64,000 nucleotides of DNA from Thioclava marina (lineage in GTDB: Bacteria > Pseudomonadota > Alphaproteobacteria > Rhodobacterales > Rhodobacteraceae): contig NZ_MPZS01000003.1 of the NCBI RefSeq assembly GCF_002020135.1, positions 1 through 64,000 of the forward strand, in the 5' to 3' direction. Shown piece after piece: positions 51,077 through 54,588 of this stretch (position 1 is the stretch's first letter; every line of letters begins with the position of its first letter). The notes below the pieces were generated by a model. That model saw only the letters and a list, made by a program, of their open reading frames with translations, had not been told where the DNA came from and did no database searches. Both the position numbers and the translations under genes were made by a program.

Positions 51077-51508
51077 ATGAGCGAAACCGACCCCTCTCAG
51101 ATCAAGGGCTTCAACCGTGCCCGTGAGCGCGCCTCCCGGGCGTTGCTGGAGGATTATGTCGAGATGATCGCGGATCTGGCGGCCGAATTCGGCGAAGCTC
51201 GGATCACCGAAATCGCGGCGCGGCTCGGCGTGGCTCATCCGACGGCCACGAAGGCCGTTGCGCGGCTCAAGCGGGAGGGACTGGCGGTCTCACGTCCCTA
51301 TCGCGGGGTGTTCCTGACCGAAGCCGGCGAGGCATTGGCCGAGCAGGTGCGCGCGCGGCACCGAACCGTCGTGGCGCTTCTACGCGCCGTGGGGGTGCCC
51401 GAGGATCTGGCCGAGCTCGATGCCGAAGGGATTGAGCACCATGTCTCGACCCGCACCCTCAAGGCGTTCGAGGCTTTCCTTGCCTCACAAGGCGGCAAAA
51501 CGGGCTGA
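51077..51508 (+). CDS. mntR: MntR/DtxR-family manganese regulator
   Basis: 143 residues. Helix-turn-helix ITEIAARLGVAHPTATKAVARLKREGL and a metal-binding dimerisation half with EALAEQVRARHRTVVALLRAVGVPEDLAELDAEGIEHHVS, where Glu and His residues fit the DtxR metal site. It lacks the SH3-like third domain. Start at 51077 follows AGGAG. It probably represses mntH when Mn is sufficient. The 3' end overlaps convergent rlmJ by 24 bases. Confidence 0.9.
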   Translation: MSETDPSQIKGFNRARERASRALLEDYVEMIADLAAEFGEARITEIAARLGVAHPTATKAVARLKREGLAVSRPYRGVFLTEAGEALAEQVRARHRTVVALLRAVGVPEDLAELDAEGIEHHVSTRTLKAFEAFLASQGGKTG

Positions 51509-52264
51509 GAGGCGCTCTGCCTCGCCCGCAAGTCCGAAGGGCGGATTCACCACGAACATACCCGAGCCGATCATGCCATGGCCTTCGCGCGCGGGGGGGA
51601 AGCGCACCTCGTGGCTCAGTGCCTCGGGGAAAGCGCCGCGCAATGCGGCGACCATCCCCTCCTGTGCGCCTGAGGCCAGAACCGGGTACCACAATGCGAT
51701 GATCCCGACGTTCCACTTTTTCGCGACCTGACCGATCAGCTTCGGCATCGCGACATAATCCGCCTTCTCCTCGAAGCTCGGATCGATCAGCATCAGGCCG
51801 CGGCGCGGGGTGGGGGGCGTGAGCGCCAGAGCCATCTCGCGCCCGTCTGCCTTGTGAACGGTGATCTTGCGCCCCACAGCCTGGCGCAGCGCGGTGAATT
51901 CCTGCGGATGCAGCTCGCAAAGCTGGATCGTGTCGATGTCCCGCAAGAGCGCCATGGCCACCAGCGGCGAGCCCGGATAGGCTTGCGGCCCATGCTTGGC
52001 CCGAACCGTGGCGAGCGCCCGCATATAGGGGTGATCGGGCGCAAACCAGCCCAAGCCCTCGATCCGTGCGATCCCCGCCGCTGCCTCGCCCGTTTTCACC
52101 GCCTCGGCCGCATCCAGCGCATAGAGCCCGCGCCCGGCATGGGTCTCGAGGTAACTCAACGGCTTGTCCTTGCGCGTGAGGTAGTCGAGCGCCGAGGCCA
52201 GCAGTGCGTGCTTGTGCACATCGGCGAGATTTCCGGCGTGATAGGCGTGTTGATAAGACAGCAT
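51485..52264 (-). CDS. rlmJ: 23S rRNA A2030 N6-methyltransferase RlmJ
   Basis: 259 residues. The N-terminus MLSYQHAYHAGNLADVHKH, the ETHAGRGLYAL SAM-binding region and the catalytic LIDPSFEEKADY are those of RlmJ; the usual N6-methylase tetrapeptide DPPY appears as DPSF. Start at 52264 follows GGAGG. The 5' side is preceded by an intergenic repeat and then the end of the CcsR-like transcript. Confidence 0.9.
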   Translation of the reverse strand: MLSYQHAYHAGNLADVHKHALLASALDYLTRKDKPLSYLETHAGRGLYALDAAEAVKTGEAAAGIARIEGLGWFAPDHPYMRALATVRAKHGPQAYPGSPLVAMALLRDIDTIQLCELHPQEFTALRQAVGRKITVHKADGREMALALTPPTPRRGLMLIDPSFEEKADYVAMPKLIGQVAKKWNVGIIALWYPVLASGAQEGMVAALRGAFPEALSHEVRFPPAREGHGMIGSGMFVVNPPFGLAGEAERLSARFAAL

Positions 52265-52388: not shown

Positions 52389-52410
52389 GACCTCTCCGCA
52401 TGGCGAGAAA

Positions 52411-52450
52411 AGAAAACGGCGGCGCCCAGGGAGGAGGAGGGGCGCCGCCG
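52411..52450 (-). terminator. Terminator hairpin of the DUF1127-CcsR transcript
   Basis: On the minus strand an 11-base GC stem (52417-52427 with 52440-52450) is followed by TTTTCTTTTC. Its loop is the CTCCTCCTCCCT motif itself, so the terminator is also the last anti-Shine-Dalgarno hairpin of the array. Confidence 0.8.
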
Positions 52451-52490
52451 TCTCTTTGCTACCTTGGGTCTCAGGGAGGAGGAGAGACCC
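52417..52490 (-). ncRNA. CcsR-like RNA, unit 5 (terminal)
   Basis: Short stem 52466-52472/52484-52490 (7 pairs), then the 11-pair terminator stem. Transcribed last. CCGAAG precedes the first stem on the minus strand. Confidence 0.7.
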
Positions 52491-52502
52491 TTCGGCATGT
52501 CC

Positions 52503-52568
52503 GACGCCGCTTCAGGGAGGAGGAAGAAGCAGCGTCTTACCCTTGGGCCCAAGGAGGAGGATAGGGCC
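52503..52568 (-). ncRNA. CcsR-like RNA, unit 4
   Basis: Short stem 52546-52550/52564-52568 with the degenerate loop, then a long stem 52503-52513/52526-52536 with one C-A mismatch. CCGAAG precedes the unit. Only 14 bases separate it from unit 3. Confidence 0.65.
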
Positions 52569-52582
52569 TTCGGTATCTGGTG

Positions 52583-52650
52583 GGCGGCACCCTCAGGGAG
52601 GAGGAGGAGGGTGCCGCCAAAACGATCGGTCCAGGGAGGAGGAGAGGACC
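52583..52650 (-). ncRNA. CcsR-like RNA, unit 3
   Basis: Short stem 52628-52632/52646-52650, then a perfect 12-pair stem 52583-52594/52607-52618. The latter is the near twin of the long stem of unit 1. Confidence 0.7.
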
Positions 52651-52745
52651 TTTCGCATTCTTGTACTCAGTTTGGACCCTTTGGTCCGCATATCAAGTGC
52701 TGCACTGCAGCATGCGACAGCCTGTCGCACCTGCGCGCTGATTGT
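52651..52745 (-). other. Motif-free spacer with three small hairpins inside the array
   Basis: This 95-base gap between units 2 and 3 lacks the CCTCCTCCC motif but holds three adjacent hairpins: GGACC/GGTCC (52674-52687), TGCTGC/GCAGCA (52698-52712) and TGCGACA/TGTCGCA (52713-52729). It may be a lost unit, a processing site or a separate RNA. Confidence 0.5.
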
Positions 52746-52821
52746 AGGCGGCGACCTCAGGGAGGAGGAGAGAGATCGCCGCCTGCTCAGCGCGGGTCTC
52801 AGGGAGGAGGAGAGAGACCCG
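52746..52821 (-). ncRNA. CcsR-like RNA, unit 2
   Basis: Short stem 52793-52800/52814-52821 (8 pairs), then a long stem whose outer 9 pairs (52746-52754/52776-52784) are perfect, with an inner C-A mismatch. Confidence 0.7.
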
Positions 52822-52878
52822 GGCAGCTCGGTTCCGGCATCGCAGCGTCTCGCCGCGCGGGGCCGGTATGGTCTGGAT

Positions 52879-52949
52879 GGCGGCGCCCTCAGGGAGGAGG
52901 AGGAGGGCGCCGCCGAGTTCCTAAGCCCCAGGGAGGAGGAGAGGGGCTT
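52879..52949 (-). ncRNA. CcsR-like RNA, unit 1
   Basis: Transcribed first, directly behind the DUF1127 gene. Short stem 52923-52929/52943-52949 (7 pairs) preceded by CCGAAG, then a perfect 12-pair stem 52879-52890/52903-52914. Confidence 0.72.
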
Positions 52950-52959
52950 CGGAAATCAA

Positions 52960-53163
52960 TTACTTGCCGTATGCGGCCTCATAGGCCACGCGGGTGATCA
53001 TCGAGCGATGCATCCCGAGATCGTCGAGCTCGCGGGAGGACAGCGAGCGGAGTTCGTTGAGCGTCTGACGGTACACCTTGCGACGCGCCATGGCGTCGGA
53101 GAGTTTTGCCTTGAGCTTCGAGAAGCCGCTTTCGCTCAGTTGGATGTCGTGAACGAGTGCCAT
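52960..53163 (-). CDS. DUF1127 small protein (CcaF1-like)
   Basis: 67 residues, basic. The C-terminal half RKVYRQTLNELRSLSSRELDDLGMHRSMITRVAYEAAYGK is the DUF1127 domain. In R. sphaeroides a DUF1127 protein encoded directly ahead of the CcsR RNAs is an RNA-binding factor made from the same stress-induced transcript. The start at 53163 follows GAGGCGAAG. The arrangement here is the same, so it is probably the host gene of the array. Confidence 0.9.
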   Translation of the reverse strand: MALVHDIQLSESGFSKLKAKLSDAMARRKVYRQTLNELRSLSSRELDDLGMHRSMITRVAYEAAYGK

Positions 53164-53505
53164 CGTCTTCGCCTCTTCTTTTCTCGTACGGGGCCCTGAG
53201 CGTTTTCCCGCTTCTGGGCCCGAATTCGTCACTGCGCTTTCTGTCGCGTTGTCCCTAAGATGGGCCGAATGCTGCGGGTGCACAATGCGCCGAGGCCTCA
53301 ATGCCGCCATGCAGAAAATGCATGAATGATTCTGACCCATTTCCGAGGCATATGCGCAAGAAACGTGCGCTTCGGATGCATGTTCGCATCTGAACCTGTC
53401 GGTTTAGACAGGAATGCGCTTGAACTGCGCGGCAAAAACGCCACAGTTCCCGGCGAATTGACCATTTTGACGGACGCTAACAGTCCGGGGAATCGGAGGG
53501 TTTGC
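53164..53505. other. Divergent intergenic region between the DUF1127 gene and mrp
   Basis: 342 bases without a gene. It must carry the promoters of both flanking transcripts. On the minus strand CCATCT at 53258-53263 resembles the -10 of heat-shock sigma factors but I see no matching -35. A CCTGTC/GACAGG hairpin lies at 53395-53412. Confidence 0.45.
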
Positions 53506-54588
53506 ATGGCTCTGAGCAAGGAGCAGGTGCTTGATGTGCTGCGTGCAGTCGAGGTGCCGGGGGGCGGAACCGCGGTGAGTCGCGATCTTCTGCGTGCGCT
53601 CGCGGTGCAGGACGGGGTTGTGAGATTCGTGCTCGAGGGTGCGCCGCAGGCTGAACTCGAGGCGATGCGCCCGGTGCTCGAAGCGGCGGTGAAGGCGCTG
53701 CCTGGGGTGGCGAGCGTGACGATCGTGGTGCCCGCGGGGCCGCCGCGCGGTATGGGCGGGACGGCGCAACAGGTGCGCGGCCCGGCAATCGGCGGTCATC
53801 CCAAGCCCCAATCGGGTCCGCAGCCTGTGCCGGGGGTGGCCAGGATCATCGCGGTCGGTTCCGGCAAGGGTGGCGTGGGCAAATCCACCGTCAGCTCCAA
53901 CCTTGCCGTTGCGCTTTCGCGAGCGGGCAAACGGGTGGGGCTGCTCGATGCCGATATCTATGGCCCGTCCCAACCGAGGATGATGGGAGCAACGCAGCGG
54001 CCCTCTTCGCCCGATGGCCAGACCATCCTGCCGCTGAAGGCGCATGGCGTCGCGCTGATGTCGGTCGGCCTGATGCTGAAAGAGGACGAGGCGGTGATCT
54101 GGCGCGGTCCGATGCTGATGGGCGCGATGCAGCAAATGCTTTTCCAGGTGAAATGGGACGAGTTCGGCCCGCTCGACGTGCTCTTGATCGACCTGCCGCC
54201 CGGAACCGGCGATGTGCAGCTTACGCTGTGCCAGAAGACGAAACTCGATGGAACGATCGTCGTGTCGACTCCGCAGGACGTGGCGCTGCTCGATGCGAAG
54301 AAGGCGATCGACATGTTCCGCAGGCTCGATGCCCCCGTGCTGGGGCTGATCGAGAACATGTCCTCTTATATATGCGCCAATTGCGGGCATGAGGCGCATC
54401 CTTTCGGTCAGGGCGGGGTCGAGGCGGAGGCGGCGCGTCTGGGCTTGCCTTTCCTTGGTGCGCTGCCGCTTGATCTCGATGTGCGGCTCGCGGGTGATGC
54501 CGGCACGCCGGCTGCGGCGGGCGAAGGGGCCGCGGCCGAGGCCTATGCGGCGCTTGCGGAGGCATTGATCGCGCGCGGCGCGGTCTGA
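53506..54588 (+). CDS. apbC: Mrp/ApbC-family Fe-S cluster carrier ATPase
   Basis: 360 residues. An N-terminal DUF59-like domain (1-80), a linker rich in Gly and Pro, then the P-loop domain with GSGKGGVGKST, IDLPPGTGDVQLTL and the cluster-holding Cys pair in YICANCGHEAHPFG. It carries Fe-S clusters to target proteins in the cytosol. Start at 53506 follows CGGAGGG; the longer frame to 53326 is unsupported. A strong terminator follows. Confidence 0.93.
   Translation: MALSKEQVLDVLRAVEVPGGGTAVSRDLLRALAVQDGVVRFVLEGAPQAELEAMRPVLEAAVKALPGVASVTIVVPAGPPRGMGGTAQQVRGPAIGGHPKPQSGPQPVPGVARIIAVGSGKGGVGKSTVSSNLAVALSRAGKRVGLLDADIYGPSQPRMMGATQRPSSPDGQTILPLKAHGVALMSVGLMLKEDEAVIWRGPMLMGAMQQMLFQVKWDEFGPLDVLLIDLPPGTGDVQLTLCQKTKLDGTIVVSTPQDVALLDAKKAIDMFRRLDAPVLGLIENMSSYICANCGHEAHPFGQGGVEAEAARLGLPFLGALPLDLDVRLAGDAGTPAAAGEGAAAEAYAALAEALIARGAV

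Follow-up and report, generated by a model that had tools for sequence, protein, structure and literature searches.

A ten-hairpin CcsR-like RNA array behind a DUF1127 gene in Thioclava and its copy number across the Rhodobacteraceae

Organization of the locus in Thioclava marina

The locus lies on the minus strand of Thioclava marina contig NZ_MPZS01000003.1 (assembly GCF_002020135.1), within a 64,000-nt stretch of DNA (positions 1 to 64,000, hereafter the window). Its hairpins, their covariation, synteny, the conserved promoter and operator, and the excess of matching Shine–Dalgarno sites were all computed in this study. The protein-coding part of the locus, at 52960..53163 (minus), encodes a CcaF1-like DUF1127 protein of 67 aa, which scores 46.2 bits against Pfam PF06568 (cut-off 23.3) and shares 61–81% identity with eight relatives from the genus; the DUF1127 protein of T. 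pacifica, the nearest relative, is 93% identical. Pfam confirmed the DUF1127 assignment in all ten relatives tested. Downstream of the array, an ORF at 51485..52264 (minus), which we take from its appearance to be an RlmJ-like 23S rRNA methyltransferase, is syntenic in the nearest loci and was recovered by tblastn in 13 of the 22 named loci. A divergent ORF at 53506..54588 (plus), presumably an Mrp/ApbC-type ATPase by recognition, provides a syntenic marker on the other side. Around the genome's three other DUF1127 genes, no motif hairpin was present within the 3.1 kb fetched for each.

Ten motif hairpins follow on the minus strand from 52954 to 52414, beginning 5 nt past the DUF1127 stop codon. 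They were identified both by direct reading and with a hairpin scanner, which confirms what an earlier sequence-only reading had reported: ten minus-strand hairpins with a common loop type directly behind the DUF1127 gene. The loops are of the CUCCUCCUCCCU type, the stems differ from one another in sequence, weak and strong hairpins alternate, and a U-run follows the last of them. Arranged as five units of one weak and one strong hairpin, the array comprises hairpins 1 (52918..52954) and 2 (52879..52914, 12 pairs) in unit 1; hairpins 3 (52790..52824) and 4 (52746..52784) in unit 2; hairpins 5 (52628..52650, 5 pairs) and 6 (52583..52618, 12 pairs) in unit 3; hairpins 7 (52546..52568, 5 pairs) and 8 (52503..52536) in unit 4; and hairpins 9 (52466..52490) and 10 (52408..52453, the hairpin proper 52453-52414) in unit 5, all on the minus strand and all backed by the scanner, covariation and folding. 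Hairpin 10, recognized by reading as well, carries a U-rich tail (52416-52408) and constitutes, by sequence and fold, a Rho-independent terminator whose own loop is the motif. A TTT behind the last stem recurs in 89 of 107 array rows, two of which (L070 and L164) represent one genome counted twice.

Every loop contains CCUCCUCCC except that of hairpin 7, where CCUCCUCCUU is found. This loop (52551-52562) had been regarded as decayed, an interpretation that we reject: the alignment reveals a single C-to-T change relative to the orthologues (a C-to-U in the RNA loop UAUCCUCCUCCUU), and the nearest relative has CCUCCUCCCU. Elsewhere in the window, the same scanner, which undercounts weak stems, returned four further hits on the two strands together. 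The 13-base pattern CTCCTCCTCCCTG occurs ten times in the genome, eight times in the array and twice elsewhere.

Two spacers, 52878-52825 and 52745-52651, contain structured sequence lacking the motif. The former, between units 1 and 2, includes a hairpin without the motif at 52834..52866 (minus; fold z -2.53 for 52877-52826), which is partly conserved in the genus alignment A3. The latter, between units 2 and 3, harbors a double dyad at 52698..52729 (minus), TGCGACAGGCTGTCGCA plus TGCTGCAGTGCAGCA, found to be conserved by genus comparison. Its first half (TGCGACAGGCTGTCGCA) is present in 12 of 16 Thioclava genomes and absent from every fetched locus outside the genus (164 loci fetched); its second half (TGCTGCAGTGCAGCA) is a perfect PhaR-type box within the transcribed array, with an exact copy in 11 of the 12 sequences aligned in A3. 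A promoter behind the double dyad (52729-52698) was also considered and rejected, as inspection of alignment A3 by eye revealed no conserved -10 element.

Folding, covariation and two-hairpin units

Each of the ten hairpins, folded alone, yields the proposed stem. Six of them have fold energies that beat all 200 shuffles, and hairpins 1 and 9 are each equalled by 4 of 200; the 5-pair hairpins 5 and 7, equalled by 18 and 16 of 200 shuffles, respectively, are unremarkable on energy alone. Across 12 orthologous genus arrays (the window and 11 relatives), 98.8% of 1197 pair cells are standard pairs, and 24 of 100 pairs exhibit two-sided changes (57 cells), values of pairing and two-sided change that none of 500 shuffles reached; when pairing partners were slid, only 36–47% paired. 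The tested structure was derived from the window; this gives it an advantage over the slid versions, though none where two-sided changes are counted. For extra pair types, these arrays did not exceed the shuffles (48 versus 45.8, 85/500). The compensating stem changes noted from the single sequence are thus borne out by the comparison, and we read the pattern as selection acting on the fold of the array RNA.

Within the window array, even-numbered hairpins are stronger than odd-numbered ones by a mean difference of -12.9 kcal/mol (one-sided permutation p 0.003). This upholds the alternation of short and long stems described earlier, and the five two-hairpin units suggested by it are a fair reading of the array. 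Among array rows with six or more hairpins, the even members are stronger on average in 65 of 82, with p below 0.05 in 37; pairing into two-hairpin units is thus common among the arrays without being general.

Hairpin number across the genus and family

The sequence-only reading had treated five units, more than the four known from Rhodobacter sphaeroides, as special to this locus. This did not hold: ten hairpins are the ordinary state of the genus, found in 13 of 16 Thioclava genomes (two others have nine and one has eight), and all 16 match the loop-pair pattern. Ten hairpins also occur in 16 of the 22 named loci, of which ten (L045-L052, L057, L061) are genus genomes and the other 12 may overlap the family genomes; among the 12 outside the genus, seven have ten.

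Across the family, a strict three-loop pattern was detected in 144 of 394 genomes, compared with 13 genomes for the reversed control pattern. Array size, determined for 55 arrays conditional on the three-loop pattern (L137, L148 and L150 were dropped, their arrays being not captured or at another place), ranges from 2 to 24 hairpins with a median of 6, and nine of the 55 arrays have ten or more. The largest, with 24 hairpins, consists of near-identical repeats of ~140 bp in a Rhodobacteraceae genome (L164:908-2161, minus). Exact repeats of 284 and 316 nt, one in each of two family genomes, point to recent tandem duplication in those genomes. When the class was searched beyond the family, the strict pattern turned up in 4 of 289 genomes, two of which belong to the Rhodobacteraceae; in the other two, short repeats account for the match and the scanner found no array, in a search that three-hairpin RNAs with other loop spacing would escape. 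The searchable literature contained no report of a 2–24 size range at one locus, the founding cuckoo RNA, CcsR and CcaF1 papers lying outside that search.

The window array itself tells a different story from these expanded ones. Duplication and turnover of its units had been proposed from the expansion and from two nearly identical 12-pair stems in units 1 and 3. Those stems are indeed alike, hairpins 2 and 6 differing by one compensated pair. Their likeness between species (0.82), however, almost equals that within one genome (0.85), arguing against a recent local duplication; the longest exact repeat in the array is 22 nt, and the hairpins are positionally orthologous over 12 genus arrays, with a mean likeness of 0.61–0.96 at orthologous positions. 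Recent duplication in the window array is thereby rejected, and neither these stems nor the loop of hairpin 7 point to turnover of its units.

Of 77 family loci (22 of them from genomes picked for many matches), 72 have a DUF1127 gene upstream of the array and five gave no upstream DUF1127 hit; in 59 of the 72, the stop codon is 15–30 nt from the first loop. It is likewise upstream in all 22 named loci, which were picked via their DUF1127. With tblastn, the divergent Mrp gene was recovered at 21 of the 22 named loci and, although most family flanks extend only 1.5 kb, at 58 of the 77 family loci. Judging by this recurrence of DUF1127 and Mrp (72/77 and 58/77), most of the family arrays represent a single locus.

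The loop-pair pattern has a second match elsewhere in at least five Thioclava genomes (G014, G004, G006, G007 and G008), and G006 and G007 have a third. Hairpins were checked at the second site of G014 (L029/L153), and no DUF1127 was found upstream there.

Promoter and two-box operator

Upstream of the DUF1127 gene, a conserved candidate promoter, TTGTGC-N16-CCATCTTA, extends from 53285 to 53256 (minus). Its -35 element (TTGTGC, 53280..53285) stands at a fixed distance from an upstream box, and its -10 element (CCATCTTA, 53256..53263) is supported by alignment A4 and example loci. The label RpoH-like is borrowed from R. sphaeroides, where ccaF1 has an RpoHI/RpoHII promoter (PMC10253847).

Two boxes accompany this promoter on the same strand. 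Box 1 (TTCTGCATGGCGGCA, 53302..53316), upstream of the promoter, is of PhaR type and has two mismatches to the family form TGCTGCANNGCAGCA (also written TGCTGCAnnGCAGCA); one of them falls in a PhaR half-site, where the window has GCGG for GCAG. Box 2 (TGTGCACCCGCAGCA, 53270..53284) starts 32 bp after box 1, overlies the -35 region and is PhaR-like with a 4-base spacer. When 500 nt of upstream sequence were searched allowing 2 mismatches, box 1 was present at 67 of the 77 family loci and 16 of the 22 named ones (83/99), and missing in 16 of 99; downstream controls gave 0/77 and 0/22, and shuffled controls 1/77 and 0/22. The distance from its end to the promoter TTGTG is 15–16 nt in 71 of the 83 loci and 7–8 nt in five, with no TTGTG in range in seven. 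Box 2 (TGTGCAnnYGCAGCA) is better conserved: within 2 mismatches, 21 of the 22 named loci and 75 of the 77 family loci have it upstream (96/99), compared with 2/22 and 3/77 for the downstream control. Where both boxes pass, their starts are 31–32 bp apart in 71 of 82 loci.

In R. sphaeroides, the PhaR site is given as CTGCNNNGCAG (PMC12542648). At the family level box 1 fits this site, and box 2, with its 4-base spacer, does not quite. The genome's own phasin gene, which adjoins phaR, has two CTGCNNNGCAG boxes 30 bp apart; the phaR product scores 95.3 bits against Pfam PHB_acc_N and the phasin product 24.7 bits against Pfam phasin, just below the 24.9 cut-off. Given the fit of box 1 and this phasin gene, control of the DUF1127–array locus by PhaR is a fair prediction rather than an established fact. 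Another regulator is possible, since box 2, the better conserved of the two, misfits the published PhaR site, and both boxes, lying between divergent genes, could also serve Mrp. In the searchable literature, PhaR and CcaF1 are not named together and a conserved two-box operator upstream of the locus was not found, the founding CcaF1 and CcsR papers lying outside that search; PhaR and CcsR co-occur there only in papers that, judging by their titles, do not concern bacteria.

The phasin gene also carries, in its 3'UTR between phaP and phaR (L001:1500 region, G000:C1:741492), a single hairpin whose loop is of the array type. The scanner detected this hairpin in 13 of the 16 Thioclava genomes, its stem differing between them and its loop core being shortened in one; in the other three genomes it was not found. 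A single hairpin of the array type in a phasin 3'UTR was not found in the searchable literature.

Relationship to known RNA families

The covariance search with Rfam models proposed in the sequence-only reading was run, and both CcsR1 and ar14 match the window, both below threshold. Four of the five units match CcsR1 (RF02791) with E-values from 3e-9 to 2.1e-6 and a best score of 44.0 against a gathering score of 65.3; unit 4 (hairpins 7 and 8) gave no CcsR1 match. The best match of ar14 (RF02344) reaches 57.0 bits (E 1.9e-9) in the window, below its gathering score of 58.8, which is passed in two sister species (62.9 in L046 and 59.7 in L045). In the window, none of the Rfam families attains its gathering score. 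The array has the position and appearance of a CcsR locus, yet is not a formal CcsR1 hit. The hairpin loops of 6C RNA are C-rich, like those of the array, and with a weak match (RF01066, 32.2 bits versus 47) this RNA is an analogue at most.

The cuckoo RNA family (Reinkensmeier and Giegerich 2015) shares with the array its adjoining hairpins, single loop motif and unconserved stems. It is described with 2–4 hairpins (PMC4504443), whereas the window array has ten and relatives up to 24. According to PMC10253847, a DUF1127 gene followed by CcsR-like RNAs corresponds to the published CIN1 locus: R. sphaeroides ccaF1 is co-transcribed with four CcsR RNAs from an RpoHI/RpoHII promoter, with RNase E processing, and CcaF1 is an RNA-binding protein that takes part in CcsR maturation. 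The Thioclava locus resembles CcsR1-4/ccaF1 in its DUF1127 gene, candidate RpoH-like promoter and terminal terminator, and in a 3'UTR array whose two-hairpin units carry the CCUCCUCCC loop. It differs in its five units instead of four, the internal double dyad and the two-box operator, a distinction drawn from the description of the R. sphaeroides locus. With alpha-r14/NfeR1 of Sinorhizobium meliloti, it shares the anti-Shine–Dalgarno loop CCUCCUCCC, stems free to vary and redundant seeds; there, according to PMC10746234, anti-Shine–Dalgarno loops with redundant seeds silence ntrB by covering the translation start. Alpha-r14/NfeR1 is, however, a trans-sRNA of three hairpins with its own sigma70 promoter and six genome copies, whereas by position the Thioclava array would be the tail of the DUF1127 transcript.

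The earlier identification of CcsR-like RNAs behind DUF1127, with anti-Shine–Dalgarno loops and a structure under selection, is supported by Rfam, Pfam, alignment and covariation. We consider it highly probable that the array is the Thioclava counterpart of the ccaF1–CcsR operon (CIN1 locus, cuckoo RNA), an estimate that also takes in the chain of events proposed below. The locus itself is an already known kind of regulator.

Predicted targets and proposed mechanism

In the organism's own genome, the pattern GGGAGGAG-N(3-10)-ATG has 29 matches at 28 sites, compared with 2 for the reversed pattern. An open frame of 97 aa or more follows at 23 of the 28 sites, and the remaining five have only short frames. 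By recognition, we take the longer frames to include glycerol kinase-like, branched-chain acid catabolism-like and acyl-CoA dehydrogenase-like proteins and solute-binding proteins, a gene set that fits a predicted silencing of catabolic and uptake genes.

Under the proposed mechanism, an RpoH-type stress sigma factor would drive a single transcript that spans DUF1127 and its ten-hairpin tail and terminates at hairpin 10. Transcription would be controlled through the conserved two-box operator, to which PhaR probably binds. RNase E, assisted by the DUF1127 protein, would then cut the tail into about five two-hairpin RNAs. By pairing with the extended Shine–Dalgarno sequence GGGAGGAG, their unpaired CCUCCUCCC loops would block translation of catabolic and uptake mRNAs. 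The many hairpin copies may raise the dose of one seed. Processing, stress induction and silencing are assumed by analogy with findings in R. sphaeroides and S. meliloti; control by PhaR, and the idea that the copy number serves to set the dose, are what we infer ourselves. Overall, we infer that stress-controlled and perhaps PHB-controlled anti-Shine–Dalgarno RNAs silence catabolic and uptake mRNAs. As a wider and tentative proposal, to which we give clearly less than even weight, the ccaF1–CcsR locus of the Rhodobacteraceae might act as a PHB-sensing translational brake, in which PhaR (which leaves DNA as PHB accumulates) and RpoH would gate an array of 2 to 24 identical hairpins, the dose would be tuned by tandem duplication, and the phasin 3'UTR hairpin would belong to the same circuit.

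At one syntenic locus, the number of copies of a regulatory seed runs from 2 to 24, a natural series in which to ask why a bacterium should need the same sRNA many times over, and the conserved two-box operator provides a handle on a possible connection of stress RNAs with carbon storage. Such a connection, if true, would fit the action on C1 metabolism and pyruvate dehydrogenase reported for CcsR RNAs of R. sphaeroides (PMC8625941).

Alternative explanations

The first hairpin lies only 5 nt after the stop codon, and DUF1127 adjoins the array at 72 of the 77 family loci, which could suit an array acting mainly in cis. It would then be an autoregulatory 3'UTR, rather than a supply of RNAs acting in trans: it would shield or fine-tune the DUF1127 mRNA and offer many landing sites to the DUF1127 RNA-binding protein. 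The RNA-binding role described for CcaF1 in CcsR maturation (PMC10253847) agrees with this. Protection, however, needs no single loop sequence kept in ten hairpins amid drifting stems; the same kind of hairpin stands alone behind another gene, phasin; and trans action of such loops is reported in S. meliloti (PMC10746234). We regard a mainly cis role as unlikely. Somewhat less improbable, though still doubtful, is that the loops form a general decoy mimicking the 16S 3' end, which would titrate mRNAs with strong Shine–Dalgarno sequences and broadly damp translation under stress, so that only the total loop number counts. One seed in nearly all hairpins and a hairpin number varying from 2 to 24 agree with this, as does a correlation between hairpin number and the density of GGGAGGAG-ATG sites (Spearman 0.48, p 0.001, 42 genomes; 0.39, p 0.03 in 30 genomes not picked for size; 0.07 for the reversed control pattern). 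That correlation is uncorrected for kinship or base composition, hairpin number also tracks genome size (0.34, p 0.03), some counted sites fall inside arrays (seen for G107), and twenty genomes without the strict array pattern show no difference in site density (p 0.19). The dose correlation is thus weak and confounded, and we do not take it as proof.

The repetition of the motif and two plus-strand ORFs of 177 and 247 aa across the array might instead suggest a DNA-level repeat (REP-like or a decaying mobile element) or a plus-strand coding repeat with incidental RNA folds. Covariation and synteny lead us to judge this refuted, leaving it a very small probability: the array occupies one syntenic locus, its stems covary on both sides, a terminator closes it, and the 13-base motif has only two other exact places in the genome. 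Silencing by anti-Shine–Dalgarno RNAs acting in trans is the reading that we prefer.

A further single hairpin, with the loop CTCCTCCTCCCT, was observed in the L010:1500 region (G000:C3:88168). It lies shortly upstream of a solute-binding-like gene, presumably, from its look, one for a nitrate-type ABC solute-binding protein.
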